In this document: in pieces, positions 3,270 through 55,598 of the stretch
Layout of the letters: every line of letters starts with the position of its first letter
Position numbering within the stretch: the stretch's first letter is position 1
NCBI RefSeq assembly: GCF_003171515.1
Contig: NC_089391.1
Location: 3,472,001-3,536,000, forward strand
From: Pyrenophora tritici-repentis
Lineage: Eukaryota > Ascomycota > Dothideomycetes > Pleosporales > Pleosporaceae
Reading direction: 5' to 3'
DNA: 64,000 nucleotides
Notes under the pieces: model-generated
Databases searched by the model: none
What the model was told of the DNA's origin: nothing
What the model saw: only the letters and a program-made list of their open reading frames with translations
Position numbers and translations under genes: made by a program

Positions 3270-5777
3270 TTAATCGACGATTCCTGGAGGCAAAAAGGAC
3301 AAATAGTCAATGGGCGCCGGCTCCATGCCATCCGCCTGACCCATGATTCGCACCTCCTCTCCTTGCTCAACTTCAACACCCTGGAACGTGATACGTGTCG
3401 CGGAATGGCCATCGAGATATATCGACGGTGTGTGACCCAGCTTGTCCTCCGTATCGCCAATCCAACTACCTACTGTCCGATTGCCAAGCTCGAGTCTGTA
3501 CCTGGCCTTCCCACCGATAAAATCAAAATAGTTGACTGCTATGTCGTACGTTCCACTGGCGAATGCGACCTTGGTAGATGCAATACCCATAGTATTGTTC
3601 GTTATGGTCACGATCGCTTTGTATCCAGAAGCCGTTTCGAAGGGTTTTAAGGCAACAGGCTTGTAGCCATTTAGCGTCATGCTCTCAGCCTCGATACGAT
3701 ACGGGTGATTACCAACACGTTTGGTCTCGTCTGGGATCCCTGAGAGGTTATGGTAGAATTCGTTGATGGCGTCGCGCCAAACGAGCGAATGGCCAGCTTG
3801 GTAGATCTGTCTGTACAAGACATGGTCGAAGCGCTCGTCGTCGATCTTACCCCGCAGAAACTCCCATTGCTTCACAAACTCCTGAGCAGTAGCAGCTCCC
3901 TCGTAGTGAGCATCGTAGAAGTGCTGGATGACAGTCTTACCAGACTTGAGTTTCTGGGTATAAGGTACGTGATGGAACCACAGCAACAGGTTATCGGGAG
4001 TCTGGTCGATGTTGTCATATATCTTAGCGACCTCGGGTGGGTATAGACCAGCGTTGCCAGTTCCATTCTTCACCGTGCGGTCCATTCCGATGCTGAAAGC
4101 ATCGGCGCGTGTCCACTGTCCCCAACCATTATTGTCCTGAGAAGCTGGATTCGGTCCGAAATGCGTGTAGAGGATGTCGGTCAAGGTTTGAATGCCGAGA
4201 TTACCGCTATAGTTTTCATATGCGGGCCAAGACTTCATTGACATATCAGTAACGGTATCCATGACATGCTCATCAAAGCCAAACGTGAGACGGATCCAAT
4301 CTTGCAAGATCGTCTCAGAGTCGACCGATGCATCCCAGGCTAATCTTCCAAAAGCATAGAGATTGGACATTGCAAGATGGCTGCCCAACCAATTCGTATC
4401 GGATCCAACATTTGATACACCGGCATACCCGCCCAGAGGTCGCTTGAACCGCTTGCCGGTAATGATGTCCTTCACCTTGGACGAACGATTGTCTGACCGC
4501 ATATCAAACTCAAGAATCTCTTTCCACTGTGGTGCGAGGTACATCAAATGGCAATTTTGGCCAAGATACTCTGGGCTGATTTGAACCTCGAAAGCCGTAC
4601 TCGTATAACGGAGAGACCCAAATAACGGCGAAGCTGGCTCACGGACCTGAAAGTCGATTGGGCCAAACTTGATCTGAACCACAACGTTCTCGTTGAATTT
4701 GCCGTCGAGGTCCTGGAAGAACTGGACTTGCGCGTTTGCACGATCATCGCGCCAGTTTGATTCGTTGATATGGTTGTCGTACACAAAAGCGCGGAACATG
4801 ACCACACCGCCGTGAGGCTCCAGAGCCCTTGCAAACATGTTGGCACCATCTGCGAGCGTCCGGTTGTACGTCAACGGTCCAGGCTGGCCCTCACTGTTGG
4901 CCTTGACGAGATAACCGGCAAAATCTGGGACGTTGGAGTATATTTGTTCGGTAATGTTCGCCCACCATGCATCCACTTTGGGGTCCAACGGATCGAAAGT
5001 GCCCAGCGACTGGTTTGGGGACGCAAAGTTGAGCGAAATTCCAATCTGGACTCCATACGGCCTCATAGCATCAGCCACTCTGCCAAGACCCTTGACATTT
5101 CGGTCGCTGAGCAAAGTAGCGTTTGCGTTGACATTGTTGATTATTACGCCATTGACACCGACGGAAGCAAGCAAACGCGCGTACTCGGCGATGCGGGTAG
5201 TGTTGTCGATCACATAGCCATCGCGGAAGAATATTGAAGGGCCAGCAAACTCGTGTTCGATACTTCCATCCATGTTGTCCCACTCATTTGTCCATCGGAT
5301 AGGCACCTGCGGATTGTAGACCTTGGAACCGTACGTGACGTTGTTTTGCGCGAGTTGGGAGAGGTATTCAAAAGCACCATACAGGGCACCGCGCTCATTC
5401 TGCCCTACAATGATGACCTTCTCTGGACTCATGCTAAGGAAAAATCCGTCCATTTCCATGTATTCGTTTTCATTAAGATTGCCATATTCATTGAAGTACG
5501 CATCTTCGATGCCAACAATGATGGCTGCATCACTGTCTGATGGTGTAGTGCTCAGGTTGAGCTGGGTACCGGTGATGCCCAAGATGCCCTTTTGGAGCTC
5601 CTTTCCAGCTGTATACACAGGACTGAATGTGGTGCTGTTCAGGACGATGAGTGTTGAAGGGACGGATTGAGCACATGGCCCGTCTGGGATAGGAGCGTAT
5701 CGCAGCCAGCCTTGGGACCCATTTTCGGCAATGACGCAACCAATGGCGCAGAAAAAGGGTACAAGGTACAACCGCAT
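3270..5777 (-). CDS. aguA: Secreted alpha-glucuronidase, GH67
   Basis: Single-exon gene of 835 aa, matching the usual length of fungal GH67 enzymes (about 840 aa). The ATG at 5777 was preferred to an in-frame start 34 codons upstream because it opens a signal peptide (MRLYLVPFFCAIGCVIAENG). The family removes 4-O-methyl-glucuronic acid from the ends of xylo-oligosaccharides outside the cell. Landmarks: a KANSEGQPGP block near residue 300 that carries the family's general-acid Glu; a GPIDFQVREP block near residue 376 with the paired acidic Asp; and a PEYLGQ block near 405 with the second acidic Glu. Many N-x-S/T sites fit a secreted glycoprotein. No frameshift or stop is seen. It is likely controlled by xylan-inducing regulators, but no regulator site was identified. 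Confidence 0.93.
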   Translation of the reverse strand: MRLYLVPFFCAIGCVIAENGSQGWLRYAPIPDGPCAQSVPSTLIVLNSTTFSPVYTAGKELQKGILGITGTQLNLSTTPSDSDAAIIVGIEDAYFNEYGNLNENEYMEMDGFFLSMSPEKVIIVGQNERGALYGAFEYLSQLAQNNVTYGSKVYNPQVPIRWTNEWDNMDGSIEHEFAGPSIFFRDGYVIDNTTRIAEYARLLASVGVNGVIINNVNANATLLSDRNVKGLGRVADAMRPYGVQIGISLNFASPNQSLGTFDPLDPKVDAWWANITEQIYSNVPDFAGYLVKANSEGQPGPLTYNRTLADGANMFARALEPHGGVVMFRAFVYDNHINESNWRDDRANAQVQFFQDLDGKFNENVVVQIKFGPIDFQVREPASPLFGSLRYTSTAFEVQISPEYLGQNCHLMYLAPQWKEILEFDMRSDNRSSKVKDIITGKRFKRPLGGYAGVSNVGSDTNWLGSHLAMSNLYAFGRLAWDASVDSETILQDWIRLTFGFDEHVMDTVTDMSMKSWPAYENYSGNLGIQTLTDILYTHFGPNPASQDNNGWGQWTRADAFSIGMDRTVKNGTGNAGLYPPEVAKIYDNIDQTPDNLLLWFHHVPYTQKLKSGKTVIQHFYDAHYEGAATAQEFVKQWEFLRGKIDDERFDHVLYRQIYQAGHSLVWRDAINEFYHNLSGIPDETKRVGNHPYRIEAESMTLNGYKPVALKPFETASGYKAIVTITNNTMGIASTKVAFASGTYDIAVNYFDFIGGKARYRLELGNRTVGSWIGDTEDKLGHTPSIYLDGHSATRITFQGVEVEQGEEVRIMGQADGMEPAPIDYLSFLPPGIVD

Positions 5778-9450: not shown

Positions 9451-9693
9451 TATTGAAAAGCTGGCACTATTAGTAGTAGTATGACTACCTAATAGAGCGC
9501 TCTCTAAGGCACAACGGTAGTGGTGGTACGACTCGTATTGTATTGACTAAGGAGCTATTCACACGTTCGTAGATCCGTGTTGCGTGCAGCTGCGTCCAAG
9601 CTCCCCGCTAGGACCCACCTGCACGTGTCACCAATCATGTGACTACTCCTCCGCTTGATACCACCAAGTCACTTACGGACTGTATTCTCAACA
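9451..9693 (-). repeat. Copia-1 3' LTR
   Basis: 243 bp, matching 14955-15197 base for base on reading. On the minus strand it starts TGTTGAGAATACAG and ends CTTTTCAATA, so the termini are TG...TA rather than the usual TG...CA. It is flanked on the left by the target duplication ATTAG. Confidence 0.95.
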
Positions 9694-9703
9694 CTCCCCC
9701 ACA
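9694..9703 (-). other. Copia-1 polypurine tract
   Basis: The minus strand reads TGTGGGGGAG directly before the 3' LTR. It is the expected primer for plus-strand DNA synthesis, and the same G-rich form precedes the 3' LTRs of the two non-autonomous elements in the window. Confidence 0.8.
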
Positions 9704-9721
9704 GGCCTTACGTGACTTGTT

Positions 9722-11914
9722 CTAGTGCCCTTCATCAATAACTCCCAGCATCTTCTTAAACCTTTCGAAAGCAACTCTCTGCAGTGGCTTAGTCATTCCG
9801 TCGGCAACCATCTCGTCAGTCGGAATATAAGAAATCTGGAGCTTCTTCTGCTCAGCTAGGTCTCTAATGAAGTGGTAGCAGATGTCAATGTGCTTAGAAC
9901 GTTCGTGCAGATGCGGATTCTTCACCAGTGCAATCGCTCCCTGATTGTCACCGTACATCTGGACTGTGATACCGTTCTCATTGACGTATTGGTGCAGGCC
10001 GAGATCTCTGAGTACTTGAGCTGCCCACTGTCCCTGCTTGGCGTACATGGCTTGTGAGATGTACTCAGACTCAGCACTTGAGGTTGCCACTGACTTCTGC
10101 TTCTTTGCTGCCCAAGAGAATGGTCCTCCATAGAACATTCCGACTCCCCCAGACATGCTCTTCCGGTCTGTCTTATCGCTTGCCCAGTCAGCGTCGGTGT
10201 AGATCCCAAACTCGTTTTGGTGATCTCCTCCTGGACCGAAGCGAATCTTCTGCTTTACTGTTGACCGTAGATATCTCATTAGATTCTTTAACGCAGTCCC
10301 GTGCATCTCTACAGGGTCTCTCATGTACTGGGCTAGTCGTCCAAGTACAAAGGCAATGTCTGGTCTCGTGAATACCATTGCGTACATTAAGCTTCCAATA
10401 ATCTGTGAATATTGTGTGGAGTCGATTCTGGCGTCTTCAGGAGTAGCAGGCTTTAGGTGTTCGTAGTCTGCAGCAGGGATCTTCTTTGACTTGTACTTTG
10501 CTGAGGTGATACCATACTTATCTAGGACTGTCTCTAGGTACTGCTGTTGATCGAGGTAAATAGCTTTGTTAGCTCTATCGCGGGTGACTCTAACTCCAAG
10601 GATCTTTCGAATCTCCCCCAGGTTCTTGGAGTTGAATCTCGTAAGGAGCATTTCGTCGAACCAGGCTAGGTCTGAAGTGAGTTTCGCGGCAGCAGCAATG
10701 TCGTCAACATAAACCAGTAGTGAAATACCTCTGCCTTTATGCGTGAATAGGCAGGGGTCTGCAAGGCTCTGTGTAAAACCGATCTCAGTTAAGAACCCCT
10801 TAAGTAGCAGGTTCCAATCTCGTCCAGCTTGCTTAAGTCCGTAAAGACTCCTCAAAACCTTCAGAACGTTGCCTTTCTTAACTTTTACCCCAGCTGGTGT
10901 TGTGAGGTAGATGTCTTCTTTTAAGTATGACTCAGTGAATGCGTTCTTGATGTCCCACTGCCAGCATTCCATGCCCTGTTTGGCAACAGTAGCAAGGAAT
11001 AACCTTAAGGTGTCCATTCGTACTGTCGGGGCGAAAGTCTCGGTGTAGTCAATCCCGTGTTGTTGACTGAACCCTCGAGCAACAAGTCTGGCCTTGAACC
11101 TCTCAATCGTACCATCAACTTTAAGCTTGACAGTAAACACCCATTTTGTGGTGACGAGGTTTGCACCCTGGGGTGGAATAAGCTCTTCCCAAGTTCCGTT
11201 CCCCACAAGAGTCCTGATCTCTTCCTCAATTGCCTCTTTCCACTTCAGTGCGTTCTCTGGGTCGCTTATAGCTTGTTTATAGGTCTGAGGGATTCTAATG
11301 CCTTTAACTTCTGTTGCTGCGAAAGCTTTGCCGCTAAGTTCTGCTCGTCCCGTGACATCGAGGTTTCCACTTACAATCACCGTATAGAAGGCTTTAACAA
11401 TCGTCTCGTGTGCAGACTCTTCATGGTGGTGCGTAGATGTCGGTATTTCAGTTGTGGGGTCTTCGTCAGCTCGGCTCTCTCGTAGGACAGCTAGCATAGC
11501 TTTGACAATTTTGGCTTGGCGATGTTCATCCTCCATGTCGTCAAATGTATCTCGCTTTCTCTTTTGGGTCCGAGTCCTGAAGTGATACCTAGCTGATGGT
11601 TCGGCTGCTACTGGGTTGGTAACTTCGTCTACCTCCATTTCTTCGCTCTCATCCTCTACTGTTGGCGCGGGTGGAGTGATGGTAGGTGATGGGTGCGCAG
11701 GTGCTGGCGTAGGCGGCGATGGTGGCGGCGGTGATGGCGGCGATGGTGGCGGCGATGATGGCGGCGGCAATGGCGGCGATGATGGCGGCAGTTCAATATC
11801 AACATCCAGGGCGTCGGGTTTAGTTAGTTGATTTAGGTTCTTCTTTGGTCTTCCTCTGGCTTTCCGTGGGATGAGCTCATTAGATGTGCCCATTGGACCT
11901 GATTTGACTCTCAA
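9722..11914 (-). CDS. Copia-1 reverse transcriptase and RNase H region
   Basis: 730 aa as read. It opens with a lysine-rich and then a strikingly proline/serine-rich linker (about residues 40-75, encoded by the GGC/GAT repeat at 11690-11810), followed by an acidic stretch. The RT_2-type reverse transcriptase starts near residue 220 (GTWEELIPP, then TKWVFTVKLK). The catalytic motif LLVYVDDI is intact. RNase H follows with YTDADWA, the SSAESEY block and YGDNQGA, and the tail is HIDICYHFIRDL. Its start is not a true gene start: it continues the integrase frame after a one-base shift at the G run at 11931-11934. All core catalytic motifs look intact, so the domain could be functional in an unshifted copy. 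Confidence 0.92.
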   Translation of the reverse strand: MRVKSGPMGTSNELIPRKARGRPKKNLNQLTKPDALDVDIELPPSSPPLPPPSSPPPSPPSPPPPSPPTPAPAHPSPTITPPAPTVEDESEEMEVDEVTNPVAAEPSARYHFRTRTQKRKRDTFDDMEDEHRQAKIVKAMLAVLRESRADEDPTTEIPTSTHHHEESAHETIVKAFYTVIVSGNLDVTGRAELSGKAFAATEVKGIRIPQTYKQAISDPENALKWKEAIEEEIRTLVGNGTWEELIPPQGANLVTTKWVFTVKLKVDGTIERFKARLVARGFSQQHGIDYTETFAPTVRMDTLRLFLATVAKQGMECWQWDIKNAFTESYLKEDIYLTTPAGVKVKKGNVLKVLRSLYGLKQAGRDWNLLLKGFLTEIGFTQSLADPCLFTHKGRGISLLVYVDDIAAAAKLTSDLAWFDEMLLTRFNSKNLGEIRKILGVRVTRDRANKAIYLDQQQYLETVLDKYGITSAKYKSKKIPAADYEHLKPATPEDARIDSTQYSQIIGSLMYAMVFTRPDIAFVLGRLAQYMRDPVEMHGTALKNLMRYLRSTVKQKIRFGPGGDHQNEFGIYTDADWASDKTDRKSMSGGVGMFYGGPFSWAAKKQKSVATSSAESEYISQAMYAKQGQWAAQVLRDLGLHQYVNENGITVQMYGDNQGAIALVKNPHLHERSKHIDICYHFIRDLAEQKKLQISYIPTDEMVADGMTKPLQRVAFERFKKMLGVIDEGH

Positions 11915-11922
11915 GTTCAGGT

Positions 11923-13200
11923 CTATCTTTCCCCTGGCACCTTCTCATTAGTTTGGATGACGCTAACTCTATGCGTATATCCAAGGTCAGGAGAGTAGAC
12001 TTTGAACTGCTTGTCTGTAGTTTCAGAATATCCCATAAAGACGCCTGCTCGACCACGGTGCACTAACTTGTCTAATCTCCCTTTCGCTGGCAGCGTCTTT
12101 GGATTGAGATAGGTGTAACACTTGCTCCCCCAGACTCGTACGTGGTCTACGCCTGGGCGTTTCCCTGAGAATACCTGCTCTGGAGACGTGGGTTTTCCCT
12201 CGACCAGCGGTCCTGTTGGCAGTCTATTGCGGATGTAGGCGTCAGCCTCAGCGGCCTCGTCCCAGAACTCAATAGGAAGTTGTGCATCATCGAGCATTGC
12301 CCTCATTGCGTGTTCGGCAGTCTGGATGCTTCGCTCCACTGGTCCATTTTGATTCGAGCTCGCAATTACGGTGTAGTCGGCCTGAACCCCGTCTTCAGTT
12401 TCCCACTGGTTTATCACAAGCTTTAGTTCTGGCGCATTGTCTGATCTGCAGGCCTTCACCTTCTTCCCAGTCTGGAGCTCTACCTTTGCCTTCCATCTGC
12501 GTAGCTCTAGGATAGCCTGGTCCTTGGTTTTCAGTGGTATCGACCAGTTCTTTCGGGAGTGGTTGCAGATTATTTGCATAAGGTAGTTATTTCCGCGGAG
12601 TGATGTAGGGAACGGTCCAGCTAAGTCAAGAGATACTAGTGCTAGTACCTCCTTTTTGTGTTCTGCTAGGATTTTGTTCATCTTATTCCTCATCTTGCCT
12701 TTAAGGCATGGGTCACAGAAGCGCCTGTGGGCTGGGGGTACTTTAATCTTTTCAATTGTCGTTACCTTATACAGGTTTCGTAGCATTGCTGGGCCGTAGT
12801 GAGCAAACCGTCTGTGCATTAGCCTGTAGTTCCGGCGATCTTTCTTCGTGGACTTGTCTTCTTCGGATTCGTCTGGGTCCTGGTCGGATTGTGTCTCGGG
12901 TTGTGTCTCCTGACTTTCCTCCGCAGTGCTTTGATCGTTGCTGTCGGTCCGAGTCTTGCCTGCAATAAACGCCTTTCCTGAGTACTTGCTTGCAATGTGG
13001 CTTACGATGTACAGACCGTCCTTCTGTGCTGCTTGTACTGCGATTCTTGATTTGTCCTTAAAATACATGTTCTTGTCATCAAAAATGCCTTGAAGTCCCT
13101 CCCTACACAACCGTCTTGCTGCGATTAGATTCACGCCGAGCTTAGGTACGTAGAGAACCTTTCGGAGTAATCCTGTTGTCCCATCCAGTGCCTTCATCAT
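11923..13200 (-). CDS. Copia-1 GAG-pre-integrase and integrase region
   Basis: 425 aa as read. It starts with the end of the protease fold (VLYVPKLGVNLIAARRL). The integrase zinc-binding region follows (MHRRFAHYG ... FCDPCLKGK, HHCC type). The core has SLDLAGPFP (first catalytic Asp), CRSDNAPE (second Asp) and NGPVERSIQT (Glu), so the D,D,E triad is present. It ends with VFMGYSETTDKQFKVY, which is typical for copia. The ATG at its start overlaps the stop of the upstream gag-protease frame by 4 bp, but the protein alignment shows the true join is a -1 shift about 35 bp earlier, at the G run at 13235-13238. Confidence 0.92.
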   Translation of the reverse strand: MMKALDGTTGLLRKVLYVPKLGVNLIAARRLCREGLQGIFDDKNMYFKDKSRIAVQAAQKDGLYIVSHIASKYSGKAFIAGKTRTDSNDQSTAEESQETQPETQSDQDPDESEEDKSTKKDRRNYRLMHRRFAHYGPAMLRNLYKVTTIEKIKVPPAHRRFCDPCLKGKMRNKMNKILAEHKKEVLALVSLDLAGPFPTSLRGNNYLMQIICNHSRKNWSIPLKTKDQAILELRRWKAKVELQTGKKVKACRSDNAPELKLVINQWETEDGVQADYTVIASSNQNGPVERSIQTAEHAMRAMLDDAQLPIEFWDEAAEADAYIRNRLPTGPLVEGKPTSPEQVFSGKRPGVDHVRVWGSKCYTYLNPKTLPAKGRLDKLVHRGRAGVFMGYSETTDKQFKVYSPDLGYTHRVSVIQTNEKVPGER

Positions 13201-14546
13201 AACAGTACCACGTTGGGTAGAATGAAGAAATCCTCCCCAACCTGGATAGTGGTGAGCGGCGTGCGCTTTAGCGGTCCTCTAAACAGGTTTCTCTTGTCAG
13301 TCATGTGTGATGAAGCACCAGTATCAGCAATCCAGTTCGCCGGTGTGCTTTTACTAGCTTGTTCCGCAGAGATATGGCAGTGTTGCGTACATTCTGTTTC
13401 CACGGATGTAGACTCGTGGCTGGTCTCGCTGTCCGTGCCTGAGGAGCCATTGTCCGTTCCAGAGTCAGAATCCTGATTCTTGGCTGCGTACCCATGCTTG
13501 CGCCTCGAGGTTGTCTTGACTGTAGGCTTGACAGGTTTGTCAGATCGCTTCTTGTTCTCATTTCTAGAAGGTCTCTTCGACTTGGCTGCGCGTCTCTCAG
13601 CTCTTTCGTCTTTCTCTCGAAGTTTTCTTCCGAATTCCTGAATTTCACCCTTGTATTTGCAGTCTCGGGCCCAGTGTTCTCCCTTACAATGGAGGCATCC
13701 TGTGGATGGGCCTAATTCAGGCGATGTAGAACGGGGGCGGTCGCGCATCGAGGAGTCCGAGCTTCTATGGTCATTCGGGTGACGGTACTTCGGGAATGCT
13801 ACATTTGCATGCTCAGCCGTGTCGTTCAGTCGCAGCTCCTTCGTGCGGAGTGCAGCAATCTTTTCGTCAACCGTGAGAGAGGTCTGGACATCGAGATAGT
13901 CGATTACTGATCCGTAGCTTTCTGGAAGAGCGCGTAGCATGATCTGGAGAAGTGCCTCATCATTGTAGAGTCCCTTGGCAGCAGGCTTAGCTGCAATAAT
14001 CTTGCGGCGGTATTCTTTTAGCTTTGCCCACGTGTAGTCGACATCCTTCTCGTCTTTCCAGGTGAAGTTCTGAAGCTTGGTCATGATGTTGTTGGCTGTC
14101 AACTGATCAGTCTTTGAGTACTTGACCTTCAGTGCGGTCCAGAGGGCAGATGCAGTCTCGTACTCGTCTGCGAGAGCGTCGTCATCATCAAGGAGACTGT
14201 TTGTGATGTAGAACAGTGCCTTAGCCTCATCCTTGTCGTATTCCTTTGCCTTTTCAGCGTTCCATGTACCTCCCAGTCGTTCGAAGTCGCTTGTCAGGCC
14301 TAGGACGCTTGCTTGTTCTGTAGGGTTGACAGTGCCGGCCGGGTCTTGAGAGGTGTTGGCAGTTGATGTGGAGGTGCCAGCTCCATGTCGTGCAATCCAG
14401 GCGTACGCGTGCTTCGTGACTTCGATAGTGTAGAAGATTCCCTTTCCCTTCAGCTTCAGTTTGTTATTGCGGAACCATTTCTCGTGATTCTCCTTCGTCA
14501 GCTTTGGGATCTTAGGCTCCTTATCGTATCTGTCGTCGCTGCCCAT
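13197..14546 (-). CDS. Copia-1 Gag and protease region
   Basis: 449 aa from the ATG at 14546. The N-terminal half matches a UBN2-type copia Gag (helical, with ALWTALKVKY and YDEALLQIMLRALPESY style blocks). A zinc knuckle is visible as CLHCKGEHWARDC (C-x2-C-x3-H-x4-C, one residue shorter than the usual CCHC). A very charged linker rich in K, R and S follows. The aspartic protease active site is WIADTGASSHMT. The frame ends about 12 codons after the G run at 13235-13238, inside the protease fold. A one-base slip or a sequence error there would restore the rest of the protease. Confidence 0.92.
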   Translation of the reverse strand: MGSDDRYDKEPKIPKLTKENHEKWFRNNKLKLKGKGIFYTIEVTKHAYAWIARHGAGTSTSTANTSQDPAGTVNPTEQASVLGLTSDFERLGGTWNAEKAKEYDKDEAKALFYITNSLLDDDDALADEYETASALWTALKVKYSKTDQLTANNIMTKLQNFTWKDEKDVDYTWAKLKEYRRKIIAAKPAAKGLYNDEALLQIMLRALPESYGSVIDYLDVQTSLTVDEKIAALRTKELRLNDTAEHANVAFPKYRHPNDHRSSDSSMRDRPRSTSPELGPSTGCLHCKGEHWARDCKYKGEIQEFGRKLREKDERAERRAAKSKRPSRNENKKRSDKPVKPTVKTTSRRKHGYAAKNQDSDSGTDNGSSGTDSETSHESTSVETECTQHCHISAEQASKSTPANWIADTGASSHMTDKRNLFRGPLKRTPLTTIQVGEDFFILPNVVLL

Positions 14547-14697
14547 CTTCGCGGTTGTGCTTTTGACTGTCTGTGACGCGTCAAATGCCGTAGTTGTGTG
14601 TGGTTTCGAGGTGTAGGGGGTGTTTAGTGGGTTTGTAAACGTTTTGGCGTCTGCGCCCTTCAGCTTTCTCTAGCTGGAACCGTATGCTCGTTTTCGG

Positions 14698-14885
14698 TGT
14701 GTGAGAAGCTCGTCTCGTCTTCCGTGTGCGAGAAGCCCGTCTCGTCTTTCGTATGCGAGAAGCTCGTCTCGTCTTCCGTGTGCGAGAAGCCCGTCTCGTC
14801 TTTCGTATGCGAGAAGCTCGTCTCGTCTTCCGTGTGCGAGAAGCTCGTCTCGTCTTCCGTGTGCGAGAAGCTCGTCTCGACTTTC
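14698..14885. repeat. 27-bp minisatellite in the Copia-1 leader
   Basis: About seven head-to-tail copies of a 27-bp unit of the form GTGTGCGAGAAGCTCGTCTC plus GTCTTCC, with alternating GCTCG/GCCCG and CTTCC/CTTTC variants. It lies between the primer site and the gag start, in the untranslated leader. Each unit contains the near-palindrome GAGAAGCTCGTCTC, so the RNA could form a series of hairpins. The length is likely to vary between element copies. Confidence 0.9.
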
Positions 14886-14940
14886 GTGGCTTCAGATCAC
14901 CTTGATCTGGTGGGTCGCCGAACCGTAGAGCACCGAGCAA

Positions 14941-14954
14941 CCGGGCTCATAACC
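14941..14954 (-). other. Copia-1 primer binding site (initiator tRNA-Met half)
   Basis: The minus strand reads GGTTATGAGCCCGG directly after the 5' LTR. It is complementary to the anticodon arm of initiator tRNA-Met (CCGGGCUCAUAACC), the half-tRNA priming known from copia and Ty5-like elements. The same site occurs in three other elements of this window. Confidence 0.85.
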
Positions 14955-15197
14955 TATTGAAAAGCTGGCACTATTAGTAGTAGTATGACTACCTAATAGA
15001 GCGCTCTCTAAGGCACAACGGTAGTGGTGGTACGACTCGTATTGTATTGACTAAGGAGCTATTCACACGTTCGTAGATCCGTGTTGCGTGCAGCTGCGTC
15101 CAAGCTCCCCGCTAGGACCCACCTGCACGTGTCACCAATCATGTGACTACTCCTCCGCTTGATACCACCAAGTCACTTACGGACTGTATTCTCAACA
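14955..15197 (-). repeat. Copia-1 5' LTR
   Basis: 243-bp copy identical on reading to the LTR at 9451-9693, followed by the target duplication ATTAG at 15198-15202. It should contain the element's promoter. It also contains the palindromic CACGTG in a GCACGTGTCACC context. Confidence 0.95.
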
Positions 15198-21444: not shown

Positions 21445-21942
21445 ATGGACATCTGGAATGACCCCGACGATGAGATTCCTACAGCCAATGCCGATACTCC
21501 TATGACCGACAACGAGAGTCCTACAGCCAGCACCGTCGGTCTGGGATCCCCACCCGTGTCATCAGACTCCTCCAACTCCTCTGAGCTACGTCCCCCGCTG
21601 CGCAAATCCCCACTCACCCAAGATCAAATCGACCGCATCGCCCTCTACATACTGTGTAGTGAGTACGTCTCAGCCACCGAGAACAAAATCGTGGACATTC
21701 AGGTTCACATTGGACGCGAATGCGACCAGCCGGGTGCGAAGGGTCTCAAGAAGGATCTAGCCAAGGCGCAGTCAACCTTACACAAGCTCAAGGAAGAGAA
21801 AAAGAGGAACGTGTGTGCGCTCAGTCAAGAACAAGAGAGGCTAAAGAAGTCGGTGGGAGAGGGCGCAGAACTAGCCAAGAAGCAGTTGAAGGAGATTGAT
21901 GTCTATCTAGAGAGGGTGAAGACGAGGCCCTGTCTGCGCTAA
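21445..21942 (+). CDS. Small acidic protein with C-terminal coiled coil
   Basis: Single exon, 165 aa. The first 55 residues are acidic and rich in serine, threonine and proline, probably disordered. Residues 60-155 form a long charged helix with heptads (KKDLAKAQSTLHKLKEEKKR and SQEQERLKKSV blocks). No signal peptide or catalytic motif. The family was not recognised. The coiled coil suggests a structural or binding role. Confidence 0.55.
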   Translation: MDIWNDPDDEIPTANADTPMTDNESPTASTVGLGSPPVSSDSSNSSELRPPLRKSPLTQDQIDRIALYILCSEYVSATENKIVDIQVHIGRECDQPGAKGLKKDLAKAQSTLHKLKEEKKRNVCALSQEQERLKKSVGEGAELAKKQLKEIDVYLERVKTRPCLR

Positions 21943-22244
21943 TTGTTGCGCGATCTGTAGATGATCATGGCGACTTAAAAGACTGGAAGTTTGGACATTT
22001 GGACTCGGCATTTGGCCTGGTCATGTCTGTATGAGAGGCTACACGATCTCTTGGATCGCCTTCCCAATGCTTGGCAGTTTTTGTACTTTTACGAAGGGCG
22101 CGGCGGGCAAGGCCGTCTTGTGTCCACTGGAATACCCAACATGAGAAATGAAGAGCGCTGCTAGATGCGCCAGTAGTCACAAGCTGATAAGAACAAACGT
22201 CATACCTCTCAGAACTTTACTTGTCCAAGAATAAATACGAGCTC
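21943..22244. other. Stretch between the coiled-coil gene and the miniature LTR element
   Basis: 3' flank of the 21445 gene. No gene is seen. It ends with AGCTC (22240-22244), the left target duplication of the miniature element. Confidence 0.5.
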
Positions 22245-22307
22245 TGTTGAGACAAAAAGTGAACACACTTTGCCCCTGCGTTGATTGGTACATATACCTT
22301 CTCAACA
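22245..22307 (-). repeat. Miniature element 3' LTR (63 bp)
   Basis: Identical to 22505-22567. The minus strand starts TGTTGAGAAGGTATATG and ends TTTTGTCTCAACA, with inverted termini TGTTGAGA/TCTCAACA. Confidence 0.9.
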
Positions 22308-22504
22308 CACCCCCGCAATTAAGGCAGGGAGACAAAGTAATGCGAGTGGTTTGCAACGCAGGCCCTTCACGGTGCTGACTCCGGCTCTGGCCCTACTCGG
22401 CGCTGGCCTCATGCTCTGACCCTTACTCGGCTCTGGTCACTCACCCAACCAGCAGTTCCTTCGCGAACATGCTGATGCGCTGAAAGCGACCCGGGCTCAT
22501 AACC

Positions 22505-22567
22505 TGTTGAGACAAAAAGTGAACACACTTTGCCCCTGCGTTGATTGGTACATATACCTTCTCAACA
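22505..22567 (-). repeat. Miniature element 5' LTR (63 bp)
   Basis: Identical to 22245-22307. It is adjoined on its inner side by the initiator tRNA-Met type primer site and on its outer side by the target duplication AGCTC. Confidence 0.9.
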
Positions 22568-23104
22568 AGCTCGTTAATATGGCAAAATTCCCACTCCCCG
22601 CGTATCGCCCCATCATATCGCATATCCGATACGAGAGATCCGGGGAAAGATAGATTAGCCAGCTCGCTAAGCAATGCAGCAGAACATAGCCATATGAAGG
22701 CTTCCGCAGCAGCCAAACAATGGTGACTGTATGTGCTCCGAAGCACATCGCTTCAGCCAATGCCTAGAAGTGAGTGTGCCAGCTGGTGGTGCTGGTCTAA
22801 TAGCGCAGATTGGTAGGTGTGCGCATCAAGCTATCTTTGGCATGCGATGGAAGCAGTCTGAAGATAGAGATTCTTGCAACAACGATGTCAGCGGCGTTTT
22901 GGTTACGAAGTCGCAGGTACATAGATCGCAGACTTCTCGCTCTGGTCCTTCCAGTGCACCATAACCACAGCATCCCTAGCATCGCGATATTTGGATACCA
23001 ACTTTCCATCATACCCTACACTCTACCTAAGTACCTCGCAAGCTGCACTCCAATACCAATCAACCCTGCCAATAAACTCCAGCAATCAATCCGACCGACC
23101 GAAC
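22568..23104. other. Promoter-side flank of a small secreted protein gene
   Basis: Open frames on the minus strand (22441-22760) run into the miniature element and are not supported. The right end is the leader of the 23105 gene, rich in C and A, with CAATCAATCC just before the start. Confidence 0.4.
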
Positions 23105-45025: not shown

Positions 45026-45162
45026 TGTTGAGAAAGAATGACTCTCTCAGTCATGGCATGTAAGTGTGTCAATTGCTAACTATACAAAGCTCGGCTAATA
45101 TAGAGCGGTGTGGGTCATGTGACTTAGCGTCCTCGTGACAGGTGACCGGAATATTCTCAACA
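45026..45162 (-). repeat. Split element 3' LTR (137 bp)
   Basis: Identical on reading to 52475-52611. It begins TGTTGAGAAAG and ends TATTCTCAACA on the plus strand and contains GTCATGTGACTTAG, similar to a GTCACATGA word in the Copia-1 LTR. Confidence 0.92.
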
Positions 45163-45384
45163 CTCCCCCATAAGCCGATCAGCTGTACCCACTACTTTGT
45201 ATAGGTCTTGCAGTCGAAGCTTCTTCTCCCTTTATATGCTTCCACTGAACGCCTTGCATGCACTTTCCAACACTCCCCCAGAAGTGCCTTGTCAACAAGA
45301 ATGAAACCTCCCTGTCACCCTATAGTGGCCGTTACGTTGCGAGTCCCTCAAGTAAAGTGAGGTATCGGCCGAGTGAAGAGTTGA

Positions 45385-45483
45385 GGAAAGAAGGTCGAGA
45401 AAGAAGGTCGAGAGAGAAGGTCGAGAAAGAAGGTCGAGAAAGAAGGTCGAGAAAGAAGGTCGAGAAAGAAGGTCGAGAGAATT
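45385..45483. repeat. 13-bp minisatellite (GAAGGTCGAGAAA)
   Basis: About seven tandem copies of GAAGGTCGAGAAA, with GAGA variants, inside the non-autonomous element. A short open frame across it encodes only a K/E/R repeat and is not a gene. Confidence 0.88.
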
Positions 45484-45556
45484 TTCGCGTTTGAAAATCA
45501 AGGTAGAATCGATATCACCAACATACCGACTCTCCCTCGACTCCTACGTGAGAGTC

Positions 45557-45730
45557 AGCGCTCCCTCAGCTTGGTACTCCCAGTACTCTAGCTGTGTACG
45601 CTCTCCTCTGTCCCAGCGCTCCCCCAGCTTGGTACTCCCAGTACTCTAGCTGTGTACGCTCTCCTCTATCCTAGCGCTCCCCTAGCTTAGTACTCCCAGT
45701 ACTCTAGCTATGTACGCTCTCCTCTCTTGT
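45557..45730. repeat. 58-bp tandem repeat, three copies
   Basis: Three units of about 58 bp starting AGCGCTCCC, each containing TACTCCCAGTACTCTAGCT and TGTACGCTCTCCTCT. The units differ by a few transitions. They lie inside the non-autonomous element. Confidence 0.88.
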
Positions 45731-45832
45731 TGTCCCCGCTCCGTTCCTCCGCTCCTGCCTCCTTGTCTGTGTCCTATTCAGGGCTCCAGACCCTAACACC
45801 CTTATTCTCCCCCATCGTTATATAAGCCTTTG

Positions 45833-46029
45833 TGTTGGAAGGCCTTGTACGATCGTACGGTGAATAACAGTAGCTAAGGTAATCTTGTGTATTGGTATTC
45901 TGGTGTATGATGATTCTACGAATGTGGGGGCTACGAAGGTATACATAGCGTTGGGTCCGAGTTGGGCCGAAGTAGGATCGAGGCGGTACATTGGGCCTTA
46001 TTAGGCGACACACCGTGTGTATGCCGACA
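45833..46029 (-). repeat. Copia-2 3' LTR (197 bp)
   Basis: Identical on reading to 51638-51834. TG...CA ends; outer flank CTTTG. Confidence 0.92.
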
Positions 46030-46123
46030 CTGGCAATCTTTTCTTATTGTAACGACTGATGTAAGGAAAAACGGGTCTTCTAAAAAGGGCACAATGAGAG
46101 GGATTCCAAATAGGCATATGTGC

Positions 46124-47173
46124 CTACTCCGTAGGTCGCTGCACAGATCCCTCTACTCGGATTGACAGCTTGTTGCTTTCGATGAAACGTTCTAACGCGC
46201 GATTTGGTGTTGCTTTCGTGAATGCGTCCGCGGGGTTGTCCTCTCCGTTGATCCAGCGGATCTCAGTGATCTCGCGACGCTCGTATGACTGCCGAAGCGC
46301 CATGATGTCGATCATCAGTCGCTTCTCAGCAGTTGTTCCGAGTTTGACGAGGCATTCATACAAGGAGTATGAATCCGTACACACAATAAGTGGGATCGGT
46401 GGTAGACCTAGGCGTCCTGTAATTATCTTGAGGGTTGTTAGGATAGCGATAGCGATGTCGACACCGCTAACCATGCCGTACGTTTCTGAGGCAAGAACGC
46501 TCCGGGTAACGCGTTTGCATTTGGTCGAACTCCAATGGATTACGTTACCACGAATATCAAACGTGCTGTCTTGTCGACTCGACTCATTCGCAAGGATAAG
46601 TAGGTACCCTAGCTGTGAGCTAAGGTCTTGGTTGTTCGCGAAGGATCCGTCTGTGAACACTACCAGCTTTGCTGTAGCGAGGTCGAGAGGGACGTATCGC
46701 AGGCCTCGTTGTATGCTCTCAGATTGCCACTGCAGCCGGCGGTTAAGCTTCACGTATTCTGTGTCCTTAGGTTGTTGTATTTGCGCAGCCGCGGAAAGAT
46801 CGAACGATGCTTCAGGTTGGCATATCGACGCAATGTACGCGCCACGCGCGCGCTGCTCCATGTACTTCTGTGCTCGGTTTGCTGCCTTCGGATCAATGAT
46901 TTCGATCTTGGCACCTTGTCCCTTCTGCGTAAGTAGAATCGTGTCTCCGCGCAACGTTAGAGTACATCCGTTGAACTCGAGTGATACTTCTTTGGACAGT
47001 CTCTCCTTGGGCTTAGCTCGAAAATTGGCTTTCTGGAGCGCAGCGTCTTCTGCACCAGAGAATGCAGGCGTCCCAATCGCGAGAGTATCGTCTGTCTGCA
47101 GGCCCACTATTCCAAACGCTTCCCGTCTCCCGTTCGTGATCAGGAGGCACGGGTCATACGTTGATGTAGCCAT
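46124..47173 (-). CDS. Copia-2 reverse transcriptase end and RNase H
   Basis: About 349 aa. The reverse transcriptase catalytic block reads FGIVGLQTDDTLAIG, with QTDD in place of the common YVDD; the DD pair is kept. RNase H follows with LVVFTDGSFANN, ASETYGMVSGVDIA and CTDSYSLYECL, and ends with INGEDNPADAFTKATPN. The true frame starts upstream, near the A run at 47283-47289, where one extra base shifts it out of the integrase-RT frame. The first catalytic RT part (ITQAYPQAQTELF) lies before the shift. Confidence 0.88.
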   Translation of the reverse strand: MATSTYDPCLLITNGRREAFGIVGLQTDDTLAIGTPAFSGAEDAALQKANFRAKPKERLSKEVSLEFNGCTLTLRGDTILLTQKGQGAKIEIIDPKAANRAQKYMEQRARGAYIASICQPEASFDLSAAAQIQQPKDTEYVKLNRRLQWQSESIQRGLRYVPLDLATAKLVVFTDGSFANNQDLSSQLGYLLILANESSRQDSTFDIRGNVIHWSSTKCKRVTRSVLASETYGMVSGVDIAIAILTTLKIITGRLGLPPIPLIVCTDSYSLYECLVKLGTTAEKRLMIDIMALRQSYERREITEIRWINGEDNPADAFTKATPNRALERFIESNKLSIRVEGSVQRPTE

Positions 47174-49403
47174 GTCGAGCTCCTTGCAGTGGTGTCCTTG
47201 GTACGTAGCAAACCAGTGGACTCCTGCTTCCGCGATTCCATAGAGTGGCTTGATTACGCGAATAATTGTTCCCTTGGGATACTTTTTTTATAAGCTCCTT
47301 TGGGAGGTGCGCTAAAACCGTGCGGAATAGCTCTGTTTGTGCCTGTGGGTACGCTTGCGTGATATCTCGTAGTTCCACAACCATGCCCTCATCGAGTAAT
47401 GCAGGCGCTAGGGCTAGAATCAGGCGCTGGCTGGCTCGTTGGATGGTTGGCGACTGCGTCAGGATCTCGTGTTTGCCCTCGTCATTGTAACCTTGAACAA
47501 CGAGGCGTGATTTCTCGTACGGGACCATGGTCTTGCCTTTGACTTCGCGGACCATGCGCGATTTGAAGATACGATACCCGCCGTGTAGAGTTGGATCAAA
47601 CAGCTCAAAACTGAATACTCCACGGCCGACGAGGTCGTCGATCTCCTTCTGATCGGATGCTTCGAATGGAGCGCCCGGGACGTTAATCACGCCGTCATTG
47701 CGTAGCTTGACGGCCAGGGCGTAATCGTCCTCCTCCTTCTTCGACAGGTACTGCACCTTGGGCTTGTTCTTTGATCCAGGTGGGCGGCCCCGCTTGCGCG
47801 GCTGAGCCGCTTGGTTGGCTTCCGCCGGTGGTACCGGTAGTGGCGGTTCATCAGCAATCGCTTCGTCTGTGGTCGGAGATCCACCTGTGCCTTGATCTGC
47901 GCCGTCTATCGCTGTAGTCAGATCGCGATAGTACGGTTTTACGACAGTGGATCGGAACGTCGTTGGGCCGTTGATCATGTCTACAGTAACATCGTGGTCC
48001 TTCATATCGATGACTCTATACGGCCCTTGCCATCCATTCTTCTCGCGCCATACCATCACCTCACTCTGAAGAGGCAGTGACAGTACCCCGTCTGTAGTAG
48101 GCCCATTCCTGGTACCAAGTGCGTTGCTCACCGCATGTTCCGCTGAGGCCTTCCGCAGCGCCCTCATCGCTTTCTGGATTGCCTCCGCGCGATGGGTTAT
48201 CGAGGGAGATGGTGGTGAATCCATGGATATCCGGGGGTATGCACCGAAGACGAGCAGCGTGGGTACGAGCCCGTCTGGGCCTGCGGTGTCGTTGACGGCC
48301 TTGACTGCCATCTGCAACACTGCGGCGTCGCTGGTGCCAGTGTCAAGCTCTGTCCTCAGGATCTCGTACGCGCGTCTGAGCGGTGCGTGGTATCTTTCTA
48401 CCTTGCCGATAGACCAATGGGCCTCGGTTGGCACTTGTTTACATGTGATTCCCATGATCTTCGCCTCTGATCTGAATTCGACTGACGCGAAGTTGGTGCC
48501 GGCGTCGTGGGTGACGATATCTGGCGGCCCTTGGTATGTATCAATCCAGAGCAGGCGGAGTGCTTCCCAGGTGTCTTTCGCGCTCATAGACGGTAGAAAT
48601 CGCGCGCCGTTGAATGTTGTAGCCGAATCGATCACGTGAAGCACTGGTTTCCCACTCAGATACATCACATCTACGAGGATCTCGAAGTTGAATTCCCGAT
48701 CATCTTTCAGCCTAAACTTGAATCGGCGCGGCGCTGGATCATGCGCTTGGCAGTGATGGCAGAACGTTTGGATCTCTCGGAGCAGCCGTTCATCCACGTC
48801 CTCGTGTCCTGCGCGTTTGAGCAATCGTATCAGCCGTTCGACGGCTGGATGCCCGAACCTCCGGTGTAAGCGTCGGAGCTCAGTCTCCGTAAGGAATACG
48901 CGCGCGCGCTCTGCCTTGCTTAGGTGGAACCACGGGTGTCCCCATTTGCGAATCACTGGAAAGGTAGCTTTTCCTTGTACCAGCTGGTCCGTAGTATTGT
49001 TGAAGTACACGTGGAGCCGGTCCATGTCTTTCAGACAGAGGAGAAACGGGGTGGGTGCGTTCAAGACCTCAAATTTGATCTTTCCAATCTGTGTCGATAC
49101 ATGTGCGGTTCCAATCGAAGTAGTGACGCTTCCTTTGCCAAATTGCACAGATGCGTTTCCAGCAGTAGACGTATCTAGAGTTACGGTGGGGTCCTCAGTT
49201 TGGAGCGCCCAGAACTGCTCCTTTCCGGCTGTCGATACATTTGAGGCACCAGTGTCAGGAAGAATGCCTTGGTACGTGATTCGCGAGTATCGATCCTCGA
49301 TAAGGAACTGCGTTGCGGGCGTAATAGGCTCCTTGCACCTGTAGACGTCTTCTCCAGTCACGTGGTGCAAAAAGGCCTGATCTGTGAGGTACTTAACTGC
49401 CAA
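47154..49403 (-). CDS. Copia-2 protease, integrase and reverse transcriptase start
   Basis: 749 aa as read. Protease: GILPDTGASNVS near residue 47. Integrase zinc-binding region: LRRLHRRFGHPAVERLIRLL ... FCHHCQAHDP. Integrase core: NFEILVDVMYLSG (Asp), IVTHDAGTNFAS (Asp) and SIGKVERYHAPL (Glu). A lysine/arginine and proline linker with an AT-hook-like RKRGRPPGSKNKP follows near residue 560, then the reverse transcriptase start (IFKSRMVREVKGK). The last 45 residues, after KELIKK, are an out-of-frame tail caused by the A7 run. The real protein continues from the gag frame through a -1 shift at the G run near 49460, so no separate start codon is proposed. Confidence 0.88.
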   Translation of the reverse strand: MAVKYLTDQAFLHHVTGEDVYRCKEPITPATQFLIEDRYSRITYQGILPDTGASNVSTAGKEQFWALQTEDPTVTLDTSTAGNASVQFGKGSVTTSIGTAHVSTQIGKIKFEVLNAPTPFLLCLKDMDRLHVYFNNTTDQLVQGKATFPVIRKWGHPWFHLSKAERARVFLTETELRRLHRRFGHPAVERLIRLLKRAGHEDVDERLLREIQTFCHHCQAHDPAPRRFKFRLKDDREFNFEILVDVMYLSGKPVLHVIDSATTFNGARFLPSMSAKDTWEALRLLWIDTYQGPPDIVTHDAGTNFASVEFRSEAKIMGITCKQVPTEAHWSIGKVERYHAPLRRAYEILRTELDTGTSDAAVLQMAVKAVNDTAGPDGLVPTLLVFGAYPRISMDSPPSPSITHRAEAIQKAMRALRKASAEHAVSNALGTRNGPTTDGVLSLPLQSEVMVWREKNGWQGPYRVIDMKDHDVTVDMINGPTTFRSTVVKPYYRDLTTAIDGADQGTGGSPTTDEAIADEPPLPVPPAEANQAAQPRKRGRPPGSKNKPKVQYLSKKEEDDYALAVKLRNDGVINVPGAPFEASDQKEIDDLVGRGVFSFELFDPTLHGGYRIFKSRMVREVKGKTMVPYEKSRLVVQGYNDEGKHEILTQSPTIQRASQRLILALAPALLDEGMVVELRDITQAYPQAQTELFRTVLAHLPKELIKKVSQGNNYSRNQATLWNRGSRSPLVCYVPRTPLQGARHGYINV

Positions 49404-49435
49404 TCTTTGGTCCTCATCATCTTCGTCTTGCTCCT

Positions 49436-51274
49436 CTAGGAAGAACTGGTCGACTTCTTCCCCTCGTACGCGACGAGAAATGTGCTAAACTCCATTTGCT
49501 CTCCCGTAATCGCGCAGTGTGTGATGTACTGCGCTTTTGAGCGTTTTCTTTCTTCAAGCGTGTGGTTTGTGGACCAACAGCCTGTCTTGCTGCAGACGTA
49601 ACATTTCTTGTCGATTTGTGTGTTGACTCCAGAGCGGTGCTGAAGCCCACCGCGTCCGCGGGTGAATCCGCTGCGTCCACCACGAGGGTTGTAATTCCCT
49701 CGCAATCTTCCAGAGCTGTTGTTGTTGTACCGACGATCCAAGTAGTACTGGCTATCCGTATCCGCCTCAGTGAAGTTGACGGAGACGGTCATGGCGAGTG
49801 AGTTTTCGATTGACGATCGCAGATCTCCAAACAGAACCTCGCATTCTAGAGACGGCTTGTAGAGTGCCATCTCGAGCTCCTTCACGCCTCGGCATGCTGT
49901 GATTACAGTCGTTCGGAGCGCGTATTCTCCCATGTACTGCTGTCCAAGTGCTCTTTGACACAATTGGAGCTTGTCCAGCATGATGTCAAGGACCTCGTGG
50001 AGGTTCTTTTCGGGGTTCTCCCTGCGGACTTTGACAAACGATGTCGTCGTCCAGTCCGCGTAGTAATGGCCGTGGTTGACGTCTGTGTCGAAGTGGTTCT
50101 TGAGCTTTGTGTAGGCAGTCAAGAACGTATCCATCCGCTGATCGACGAAGTGGAGGTAATACTCCTCTGCGCGGCCGTCGAGAATCCGTGGAAAGACTGC
50201 ATGGAACTGCCCTGGCTCGATGTCTGCGTGATAACAGATGCTGTAGAAGATTTTCAATTTATCGTCTAGGAGGTCGTACGGCTTTCCCGTATACTTTTTG
50301 TCTCGGTCCCACATTTTCACGAAGACATTGATCGTCTTAGGATCTAGTTTCTCATTGCTAAACTCGATTGGTGGAACTGCCTTGTACGGGTCTGTTTCAC
50401 CAGAGGGCACAATTGGGGGAACGCTCGGTCCCTTCGGACGTTGCGGGTATGCTGGTGTATACTCGCGGAATCGGTCGAAGTTGTTGTAGGTGAGGGGAGG
50501 TTGCTGACTTTGGACGCGCTGATAGGCTGGCTGCGGTGCGGATTCAGTTGTCTCTACAGGCTGGCTTCGGATTGGTTGGTTTTGGGCTTTCTCAATCGTT
50601 TTTGCTAGCTGGTCCTGAATCTGTTGTTCTTCCTCAACGGTCTCCTGTCGTCCTTGCACACGGGCGTGGGTCTGGTCTTGATCGCGGGTTTGCCGACTGT
50701 CTACGTCTCGGCCTCTTGTCCTTACAGGCGTTTGGGTTCGGCTCTGGGCCTGGCTTGATAATCTCCTGTCTGTGGACTGTACTGATCCTTCACTGCGTTG
50801 TTGCCGTAGTGCCCGCTCTTGCAACATGTGCGCAGCTGATCGTGTGTCAAACACAGCCGACTGGAATACGTCCTGAGGCCATTCTAGGTACTCCTCCATG
50901 CGTAATAACCTAGCTAGAGACTCACTAGGTGCCATATTAATACGGCCAGTATACACTCCCTTAAAGCGGAGGATCCGCTTTAGTTCCTTTGTGTATATTG
51001 GCTGGGCACGTAGGAACATTGCCTCTGTCCATCCTTCAAAGTCCTGACGGAACTCCCAAAAGAGTTCTTCATCTGCTGTTGGTCGATCTGTATAGTCCGC
51101 AATCGCACGCGCAATGTACGTTGTTGCTGTAGTAATCCCTACCTCATCGTCTGGAGCTTCAACGTTGTCCTCCCAAATCTCTGGATCGATGTGATGCCAT
51201 TCTCTTGGTTTTATGTTTGTGGTCCCTAGTAGCGCCTCTAGTGTGGGTACCACTCTTCTACTACTGCTCGCCAT
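49436..51274 (-). CDS. Copia-2 Gag
   Basis: 612 aa from the ATG at 51274 (the frame is open further upstream without an ATG). The N-terminal part contains a helical domain (EELFWEFRQDFEGWTEAMFL). A long glutamine-, arginine- and proline-rich linker follows, then a second conserved domain (FVKMWDRDKKYTGKPYDLL ... FHAVFPRILDGRAEEYYLHF). It ends with an RGG-rich stretch and a knuckle-like CYVCSKTGCWSTNHT. This layout is typical of a fungal copia lineage. The frame stops nine codons after the G run at 49460-49463. Confidence 0.85.
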   Translation of the reverse strand: MASSSRRVVPTLEALLGTTNIKPREWHHIDPEIWEDNVEAPDDEVGITTATTYIARAIADYTDRPTADEELFWEFRQDFEGWTEAMFLRAQPIYTKELKRILRFKGVYTGRINMAPSESLARLLRMEEYLEWPQDVFQSAVFDTRSAAHMLQERALRQQRSEGSVQSTDRRLSSQAQSRTQTPVRTRGRDVDSRQTRDQDQTHARVQGRQETVEEEQQIQDQLAKTIEKAQNQPIRSQPVETTESAPQPAYQRVQSQQPPLTYNNFDRFREYTPAYPQRPKGPSVPPIVPSGETDPYKAVPPIEFSNEKLDPKTINVFVKMWDRDKKYTGKPYDLLDDKLKIFYSICYHADIEPGQFHAVFPRILDGRAEEYYLHFVDQRMDTFLTAYTKLKNHFDTDVNHGHYYADWTTTSFVKVRRENPEKNLHEVLDIMLDKLQLCQRALGQQYMGEYALRTTVITACRGVKELEMALYKPSLECEVLFGDLRSSIENSLAMTVSVNFTEADTDSQYYLDRRYNNNSSGRLRGNYNPRGGRSGFTRGRGGLQHRSGVNTQIDKKCYVCSKTGCWSTNHTLEERKRSKAQYITHCAITGEQMEFSTFLVAYEGKKSTSSS

Positions 51275-51637
51275 TCCTACTGCCGGTGTCCTGGCTACCG
51301 GTGCTCTTTCCGATGATGTTCTCTCTCCTGCTATTGTGTTCTTGTTGACGCTTGTTGCGCTAGCTGCGTTCGCTAGAGATGCGTCGGTGGTCGTGGGTTG
51401 TACACGGGTCAAATCTCAACCGGTCGGTTGGCGCGTGTATAGACGGCGTCTTGGAACGCTTCTGATACGGCTGTAACGGTCGGTCGCTAGCCACGAACGA
51501 CGCCTGATATAGCTAACAGTGAGCTTAGCATAGATAACTCCGCCTTGCTGATATAGGCAATCTAGGGAACGCGCGGGGTAAAGAATCTATCTCTTCTTAA
51601 CCTAACTGTCTGTGACTGCCGTGCAATCACTGATCAG

Positions 51638-51834
51638 TGTTGGAAGGCCTTGTACGATCGTACGGTGAATAACAGTAGCTAAGGTAATCTTGTGTATTGG
51701 TATTCTGGTGTATGATGATTCTACGAATGTGGGGGCTACGAAGGTATACATAGCGTTGGGTCCGAGTTGGGCCGAAGTAGGATCGAGGCGGTACATTGGG
51801 CCTTATTAGGCGACACACCGTGTGTATGCCGACA
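51638..51834 (-). repeat. Copia-2 5' LTR (197 bp)
   Basis: Identical on reading to 45833-46029; outer flank CTTTG at 51835-51839. Confidence 0.92.
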
Positions 51835-52247
51835 CTTTGCTTCTTTGCGTTTATTTAACGAAATCCTTTGGAAAGAAGATAAAAATCGATCGAGAAATCG
51901 GGTGGGGGTAGGTGGGTAGCGTTCGAGAGAGTAAAAAAACTTCGAGCACCGTCAAACGGTAGGTTTTCGAGTTTAAGGAATTGAAAGTAGCTGTCGAACT
52001 GTAGCTACTAGTTTAAAAAGAAGGTCTCGAAAGGTTACTATCGATAGGCAGGCAATTCGAGTTGTTTTCGGAAGAATCGATGGTTACCGTCGGTAGGTAG
52101 GTATTCGAATCGTTGTCAAAAGGTTGGTTGAAAAGGGATAGAGCAACCATTGCTCTCTTCGACTCGCGCGTCGGAATTGGGTATAACTCGCCCAAGGTAT
52201 CTTCGAGACGCTCCCAGCTTCTCCGGACGATAGTCCATTTTTCTTCG

Positions 52248-52344
52248 GACTTAATACCCTTCGCGGTAGCCAGGGCGACGGCCCAGTGTCTTCAGGACTT
52301 AATACCCTTCGCGGCAGCCAGGGCGACGACCCAGTGTCTTAGAA
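52248..52344. repeat. 48-bp tandem repeat, two copies
   Basis: Two units starting CTTAATACCCTTCGCGG, then CAGCCAGGGCGACG and CCCAGTGTCTT, with a few differences. They lie in the leader side of the non-autonomous element. Confidence 0.8.
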
Positions 52345-52460
52345 TATAGAAGGCGACGACCTCCTGGGTTGTTCTGGCGTAGACACGCATATACCAGCTT
52401 GCTGCCCATATCGAAGAAACGACACTCCGGACACTCACAATGCACACGCAAGCGCGTAAG

Positions 52461-55585: not shown

Positions 55586-55598
55586 GTTATGAGCCCGG
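55586..55598 (+). other. Copia-3 primer binding site
   Basis: GTTATGAGCCCGG directly after the 5' LTR, complementary to the anticodon arm of initiator tRNA-Met; shared with Copia-1 and both non-autonomous elements. Confidence 0.85.

Follow-up and report, generated by a model that had tools for sequence, protein, structure and literature searches.

A complete miniature LTR retrotransposon (TRIM) in Pyrenophora tritici-repentis and its composites with Copia elements, joined at a shared half-tRNA primer site

A non-coding sequence of only 323 bp, bounded by two terminal repeats, raises the question of whether it constitutes a complete retrotransposon and, if so, which elements of the same genome enable its copying. 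The locus is situated within a 64,000-bp stretch of contig NC_089391.1 of Pyrenophora tritici-repentis (hereafter the window), where the element occupies positions 22245-22567, has TG...CA termini and carries two 63-bp LTRs identical to each other. An earlier sequence-only reading had described it as a complete miniature LTR retrotransposon of 323 bp with identical 63-bp LTRs, flanked by the duplicated target sequence AGCTC and devoid of coding sequence. Our inspection agreed with this description: the LTRs and duplications were located at the positions given in Table 1, and no frame of at least 45 aa lies wholly within the element, the longer frames crossing its ends.

The same reading had listed a primer site and a polypurine tract, which are indeed present, although on the minus strand only; it had not named the strand and had overlooked the half-tRNA character of the primer site. 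The element reads in the minus direction, since it is there alone that the primer site, a 14-nt complement of the tRNA-Met anticodon arm, adjoins the 5' LTR and that GCGGGGGTG adjoins the 3' LTR. The plus-strand reading was rejected: in that direction the left LTR is not followed by TGG, nor is the right LTR preceded by a run of purines. The predicted fold of the element RNA had a z score of -4.06, which we do not interpret, since the LTR repeats can pair by themselves.

Table 1. Features of the 323-bp element and its target site (window coordinates)
Feature	Position	Strand	Basis
Left target site duplication, AGCTC	22240..22244	.	Sequence; own 5-bp duplication in 7/7 full-length copies
63-bp LTR (3' LTR in the functional, minus orientation)	22245..22307	-	Identical to the other LTR
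Polypurine tract GCGGGGGTG, adjoining the 3' LTR	22308..22316	-	Sequence; use as a primer inferred
Internal region, 197 bp, gene-free	22308..22504	-	Identical in the C3 composite
Primer binding site, 14-nt complement of the tRNA-Met anticodon arm, adjoining the 5' LTR	22491..22504	-	Sequence
63-bp LTR (5' LTR in the functional orientation)	22505..22567	-	Identical to the other LTR
TATATGTA, possible TATA box in the 5' LTR	22549..22556	-	Weak; sequence read by eye
Right target site duplication, AGCTC	22568..22572	.	Sequence

The plus-strand sequence directly preceding the right LTR, CCGGGCTCATAACC, matches 14 nt of the anticodon arm in three tRNA-Met genes, which were found by a pattern search. 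ARAGORN identified all three as tRNA-Met with the anticodon CAT (arm sequence GCGCCGGGCTCATAACCCGG), and we take them to be initiator tRNAs. The 12-mer GGGCTCATAACC occurs 142 times in the genome, compared with 7 occurrences of its reversed control, as expected if many Copia elements prime in this way. Adjacent to the 5' LTR, the same 14-nt primer site occurs in the 323-bp element and in a Copia element of this genome, Copia-1.

A search of the 40.9-Mb genome with the 323-bp query yielded 25 matches. Seven are full-length copies (323 bp, 98-100% identity), all flanked by perfect 5-bp direct repeats that differ from copy to copy (ATATA, AGCTC, AAAAT, ACAAC, TGCAT, GTATA and AGATC). Four of these copies are identical, while the others show 2, 3 and 5 differences from the window copy. 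Five further matches represent a sister family of 361 bp (78% over query positions 1-316), whose members are mutually identical and have five distinct perfect 5-bp duplications. Solo LTRs were also found, two of the 323-bp-family type and six of the sister type, with perfect 5-bp duplications in all eight cases. The last five matches comprise a decayed 52-bp fragment (L025), omitted from the duplication counts, and four matches within three composite insertions described below; L016 is the left LTR of one of these composites, that on C3, and not a solo LTR. The genome search for copies had been set as a test by the sequence-only reading, and the seven full-length copies with distinct duplications exclude a single-copy sequence. 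In one copy, L006, the two LTRs differ at site 23/283, and L005 and L007 carry the alternative base in both LTRs; judging by these bases, L006 may be a within-family recombinant.

The element is thus a complete, non-autonomous TRIM (terminal-repeat retrotransposon in miniature). It consists of two LTRs and a non-coding internal region, has a total length below 1000 bp, and on the minus strand its internal region is bounded by a putative primer site and polypurine tract; in the two sister families, 12/12 full-length copies are inserted independently, each within its own target duplication. The multiple independent insertions, each with its own duplication, uphold the earlier description as a complete miniature LTR retrotransposon, and the element looks recently active.

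The sequence-only reading had also supposed that such elements are novel in fungi. This did not hold, as TRIMs have been published from Cochliobolus heterostrophus, Zymoseptoria tritici, rusts and some Agaricomycetes. Among these are (i) seven TRIMs related to Copia-1_CH in C. heterostrophus (PMC4112212), (ii) one TRIM in a Z. tritici library (PMC12612061, PMC10652580) and (iii) the Helenus TRIMs of rusts (Pucciniales) and Agaricomycetes (Kojima 2024, PMC10886601). According to the latter, Helenus elements mostly have anticodon-loop primer sites, with iMet dominant, generate 5-bp duplications and have Copia as the inferred helper. The TRIM of P. tritici-repentis is similar in its size class, its 5-bp duplications, its iMet anticodon-loop primer site and its inferred Copia helper. 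In contrast, Helenus LTRs are described as holding a tRNA-like sequence with Pol III boxes (PMC10886601), and we found no tRNA-like sequence in the TRIM LTR: an Rfam search of positions 21900-22920 returned no family at E<=1, ARAGORN detected no tRNA in the window, and GGTTC (box B) is absent from both strands of the LTR. The hosts also differ, Helenus being described from Pucciniales and Agaricomycetes (PMC10886601), whereas the element described here resides in a pleosporalean ascomycete. We therefore rejected membership of Helenus, whose LTRs would be expected to show a tRNA-like sequence with boxes A and B (GGTTC), although the anticodon-loop primer site and the 5-bp duplication match.

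By description rather than by sequence, the element may also be likened to the Copia-related TRIMs of C. heterostrophus, another pleosporalean host (PMC4112212), and to the plant element SMART (292 bp), which is of similar size, non-coding and with Copia as the inferred helper, as cited in PMC10886601. The element belongs to the TRIM class already known from fungi, half-tRNA primer site included, and is not a Helenus element. Apart from its very short LTR and its evident recency, it is an ordinary TRIM.

The sequence-only reading, correct in recognizing a miniature LTR retrotransposon, had overlooked the fusion of some copies to Copia parts. Such fusions make up 3 of the 15 insertions containing TRIM internal sequence, each bounded by one 5-bp target duplication around the whole. 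The shortest (C1:2645417-2645898, minus strand) is a hybrid flanked on both sides by GCTTT, which has no internal LTR and is composed of a 223-bp Copia-type LTR with the tip AATA, the primer site, the TRIM-A body and a 63-bp TRIM LTR. The other two are five-part composites with an internal LTR, outer LTRs alike and a single duplication around the whole. The first (C3:1183852-1192494; flanked by ATATT) is framed by two copies of one TRIM LTR. Between them lie, in order, a primer site with a Copia body, then a Copia LTR, and finally a second primer site with the TRIM-A body. Its outer LTRs are identical, its TRIM-A body is identical to that of the window copy, and its first primer site, after the left TRIM LTR, has one changed base. 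The second (C5:2475123-2480810; flanked by CATAC) is framed by two copies of one Copia-1 LTR, which enclose, in order, a primer site with the TRIM-B body and LTR and a second primer site with a Copia body; here too the outer LTRs are identical, and the TRIM-B body and LTR are identical to those of free copies.

The Copia body of the C3 composite includes a hAT transposase frame between its gag and RVT_2 frames (843 aa, including a hAT dimerisation domain; L057, 3157-5688), which is probably a nested hAT transposon.

The joints of the three composites are strikingly asymmetric. All five LTR/primer-site joints are heterotypic, and all five polypurine/LTR joints are homotypic, the polypurine end of the Copia bodies being GAGGGGGAG as opposed to GCGGGGGTG of the TRIM. 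In all three insertions the transition between TRIM and Copia parts coincides with the LTR/primer-site boundary or lies no more than about 2 bp from it. The outer LTRs and the inner TRIM LTR of the C5 composite are identical to free copies and not chimeric; in the C3 composite the TRIM LTRs conform to the TRIM type, and any difference in kind of the Copia LTR is confined to the tip.

We also examined the Copia elements of this genome. The 235-bp LTR of Copia-1 shows no variation among the 40 occurrences scored out of 125 candidates. Scoring covered 40 of 125 and 40 of 111 candidates in the two LTR searches, which makes the LTR copy numbers minimum values, and 150 of 407 in a further candidate search. 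All eight free Copia-1 5' junctions that were compared agree with the C5 composite in the LTR and in the first 60 bases of the body, and 5-bp duplications were present in 11/11 checked insertions with both ends in hand. Among 73 exact AACA/GGTTATGAGC sites (39 + 34 matches), a set that leaves out the C1 hybrid (AATA), TRIM copy L007 and other AATA-tipped Copia sites, the LTR and body classes agree in 69: 11 are TRIM, 33 belong to the Copia-1 class and 25 to a third Copia class. At the four mixed sites the TRIM is paired only with the Copia-1 class (2 and 2). None of the 25 sites of the third class is mixed with the TRIM, which, with only three composites, is not telling alone. The tips of the TRIM-A LTR (TGTTGAGAA...CTCAACA) are closer to this third class than to Copia-1 (TGTTAAGAA...TCTAACA), so that the third class may also act as a helper. 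No kinship of the TRIM body to any Copia element was detected by blastn in the genome search.

Several further Copia-type sequences were observed. A member of the third class lies in the window at 45026-52611 (minus strand), with identical 137-bp LTRs and TRIM-like LTR tips; it shares the half-tRNA primer site and is flanked by the 5-bp duplication ATTGA. The window also contains Copia-type frames (9722-14546) between identical 243-bp repeats at 9451-15197 (minus strand), with a tRNA-Met primer motif at 14943, and Copia-type frames (55706-60363) between identical 124-bp repeats at 55462-60624 (plus strand), as well as a GH67 alpha-glucuronidase gene (3270-5777, minus strand). The product of this gene shares 90% identity with a protein from Pyrenophora teres f. 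teres, its best match among the 120 listed, 88% with a second protein and 82% with one from Alternaria, which suits a Pyrenophora species other than P. teres. On C18 (17681, 22835, 27988) and C31 (2921, 8075), Copia-1 LTR/primer-site junctions are spaced 5153-5154 bp apart, as in LTR-sharing tandem arrays.

We infer the identity of the helper (Copia) and the copying mechanism from these sequence comparisons. It is quite probable that Copia elements of this genome that share the half-tRNA-Met primer site copy the TRIM in trans, and that a template switch at this site generates the composites. According to this model, TRIM RNA would enter Copia particles, where the anticodon arm of initiator tRNA-Met would serve the Copia enzymes as primer; these would then copy the RNA and insert the product with a 5-bp duplication. 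In LTR elements, plus-strand strong-stop DNA carries, beyond the LTR, a copy of part of the tRNA, which pairs with the complementary primer-site sequence on the minus strand. Were both RNAs reverse-transcribed inside a single particle, a plus strand that terminates in LTR and primer site could pair with the minus strand of the other element and continue there. One such switch would give a Copia LTR, TRIM body and TRIM LTR, as on C1, and two switches would give LTR-body-LTR'-body'-LTR, as on C3 and C5. An intermolecular transfer of this kind would explain why the LTRs are of parental type, where the joints lie, why they are asymmetric and why only one duplication flanks each insertion. With slightly better than even confidence, we therefore propose the shared half-tRNA primer site as a hinge, at which co-copied Copia and TRIM plus strands swap minus-strand templates, producing two-LTR hybrids and single-insertion composites.

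One detail counts against plain plus-strand transfer. The Copia LTR of the C3 composite has the tip AACA beside the primer site, as in the TRIM, whereas AATA is found at 22 other sites sharing the same Copia flank, the C1 hybrid included (e.g. C2:158846-158868), and 39 of 40 scored matches to this LTR end two bases before that tip. The joint on C3 may therefore lie 2 bp inside the LTR, which such a transfer does not predict; single changes at that base do occur, since the plain TRIM copy L007 also has AATA at its 5' LTR tip. The AACA tip would be better explained by a switch just inside the LTR during minus-strand synthesis, in which the composites arise from template switching between co-packaged RNAs at the U5/primer site, followed by an R-to-R jump and ordinary plus-strand transfer, the TRIM itself being copied as described above. 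This route yields the same five-part products as those on C3 and C5. It needs extra steps, however, for the one-switch hybrid on C1, which has two different LTRs (223 and 63 bp) within one duplication, and we consider it rather unlikely. The C1 hybrid favours the plus-strand route, and either route may have produced the composites on C3 and C5.

Recombination at the DNA level, either between neighbouring insertions after integration or between circular TRIM cDNA and Copia, appears very improbable as the source of the composites. It can also create tandem, seemingly LTR-sharing Copia arrays such as those on C18 and C31 (spacing about 5154 bp), but each whole composite has a single 5-bp duplication around it, which disfavours post-integration recombination, the outer LTRs of the C3 and C5 composites are identical, and homology at the joints is limited to the primer site and a few bases of the LTR tip. 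As for the TRIM itself, its lack of coding capacity would suit a non-replicating remnant, left when a larger LTR element suffered a chance deletion. Such an origin is extremely improbable given seven copies of the same length and five sister copies, 12/12 with their own duplications, and a genome search in which no larger element with the same internal region was found, the composites excepted. The reading that we prefer therefore remains a TRIM copied in trans by Copia, with strand transfer at the shared primer site.

In the literature searched we found neither this 323-bp family nor any primer-site fusion of a TRIM with its helper; both results are weak evidence of novelty, as most subscription papers lay outside the search. 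LTR swapping between autonomous and non-autonomous elements has reportedly been observed in soybean, to go by the title of Du et al. 2010. A search of IMG/VR contigs with the start of the LTR, allowing one ambiguous base, gave 0 matches, which is uninformative for fungi. In grasses, LTR-body-LTR-body-LTR insertions in one 5-bp duplication were ascribed to co-packaged RNAs (Sabot and Schulman 2007, PMC1950507), and the C3 and C5 composites share with these complex insertions the three-LTR layout inside one 5-bp duplication. The grass insertions (PMC1950507) involve two similar autonomous elements, a proposed R-R switch and chimeric LTRs, whereas those described here combine a TRIM and Copia with different bodies, have their joints at the primer site and are accompanied by a two-LTR hybrid. 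The chimeric LTRs of that R-R switching model were not seen in the C3 and C5 composites, whose LTRs are of parental type, the C3 tip aside. Recombination during bursts of ONSEN was likewise ascribed to two co-packaged RNAs; it takes place within one autonomous family, and the LTR products mostly fit a first template switch in R (PMC5668417).

The more interesting part is the occurrence in one genome of what would be zero-, one- and two-switch products, rather than the TRIM itself. If the primer site does act as a hinge, P. tritici-repentis holds these products side by side. The helper of a TRIM is usually inferred from sequence likeness, as in PMC10886601, whereas the fusions described here would point physically to candidate helpers, and also to the step at which parasite and helper exchange ends, namely strand transfer at the primer site. 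Co-packaging and intermolecular strand transfer would thereby become testable by sequencing.
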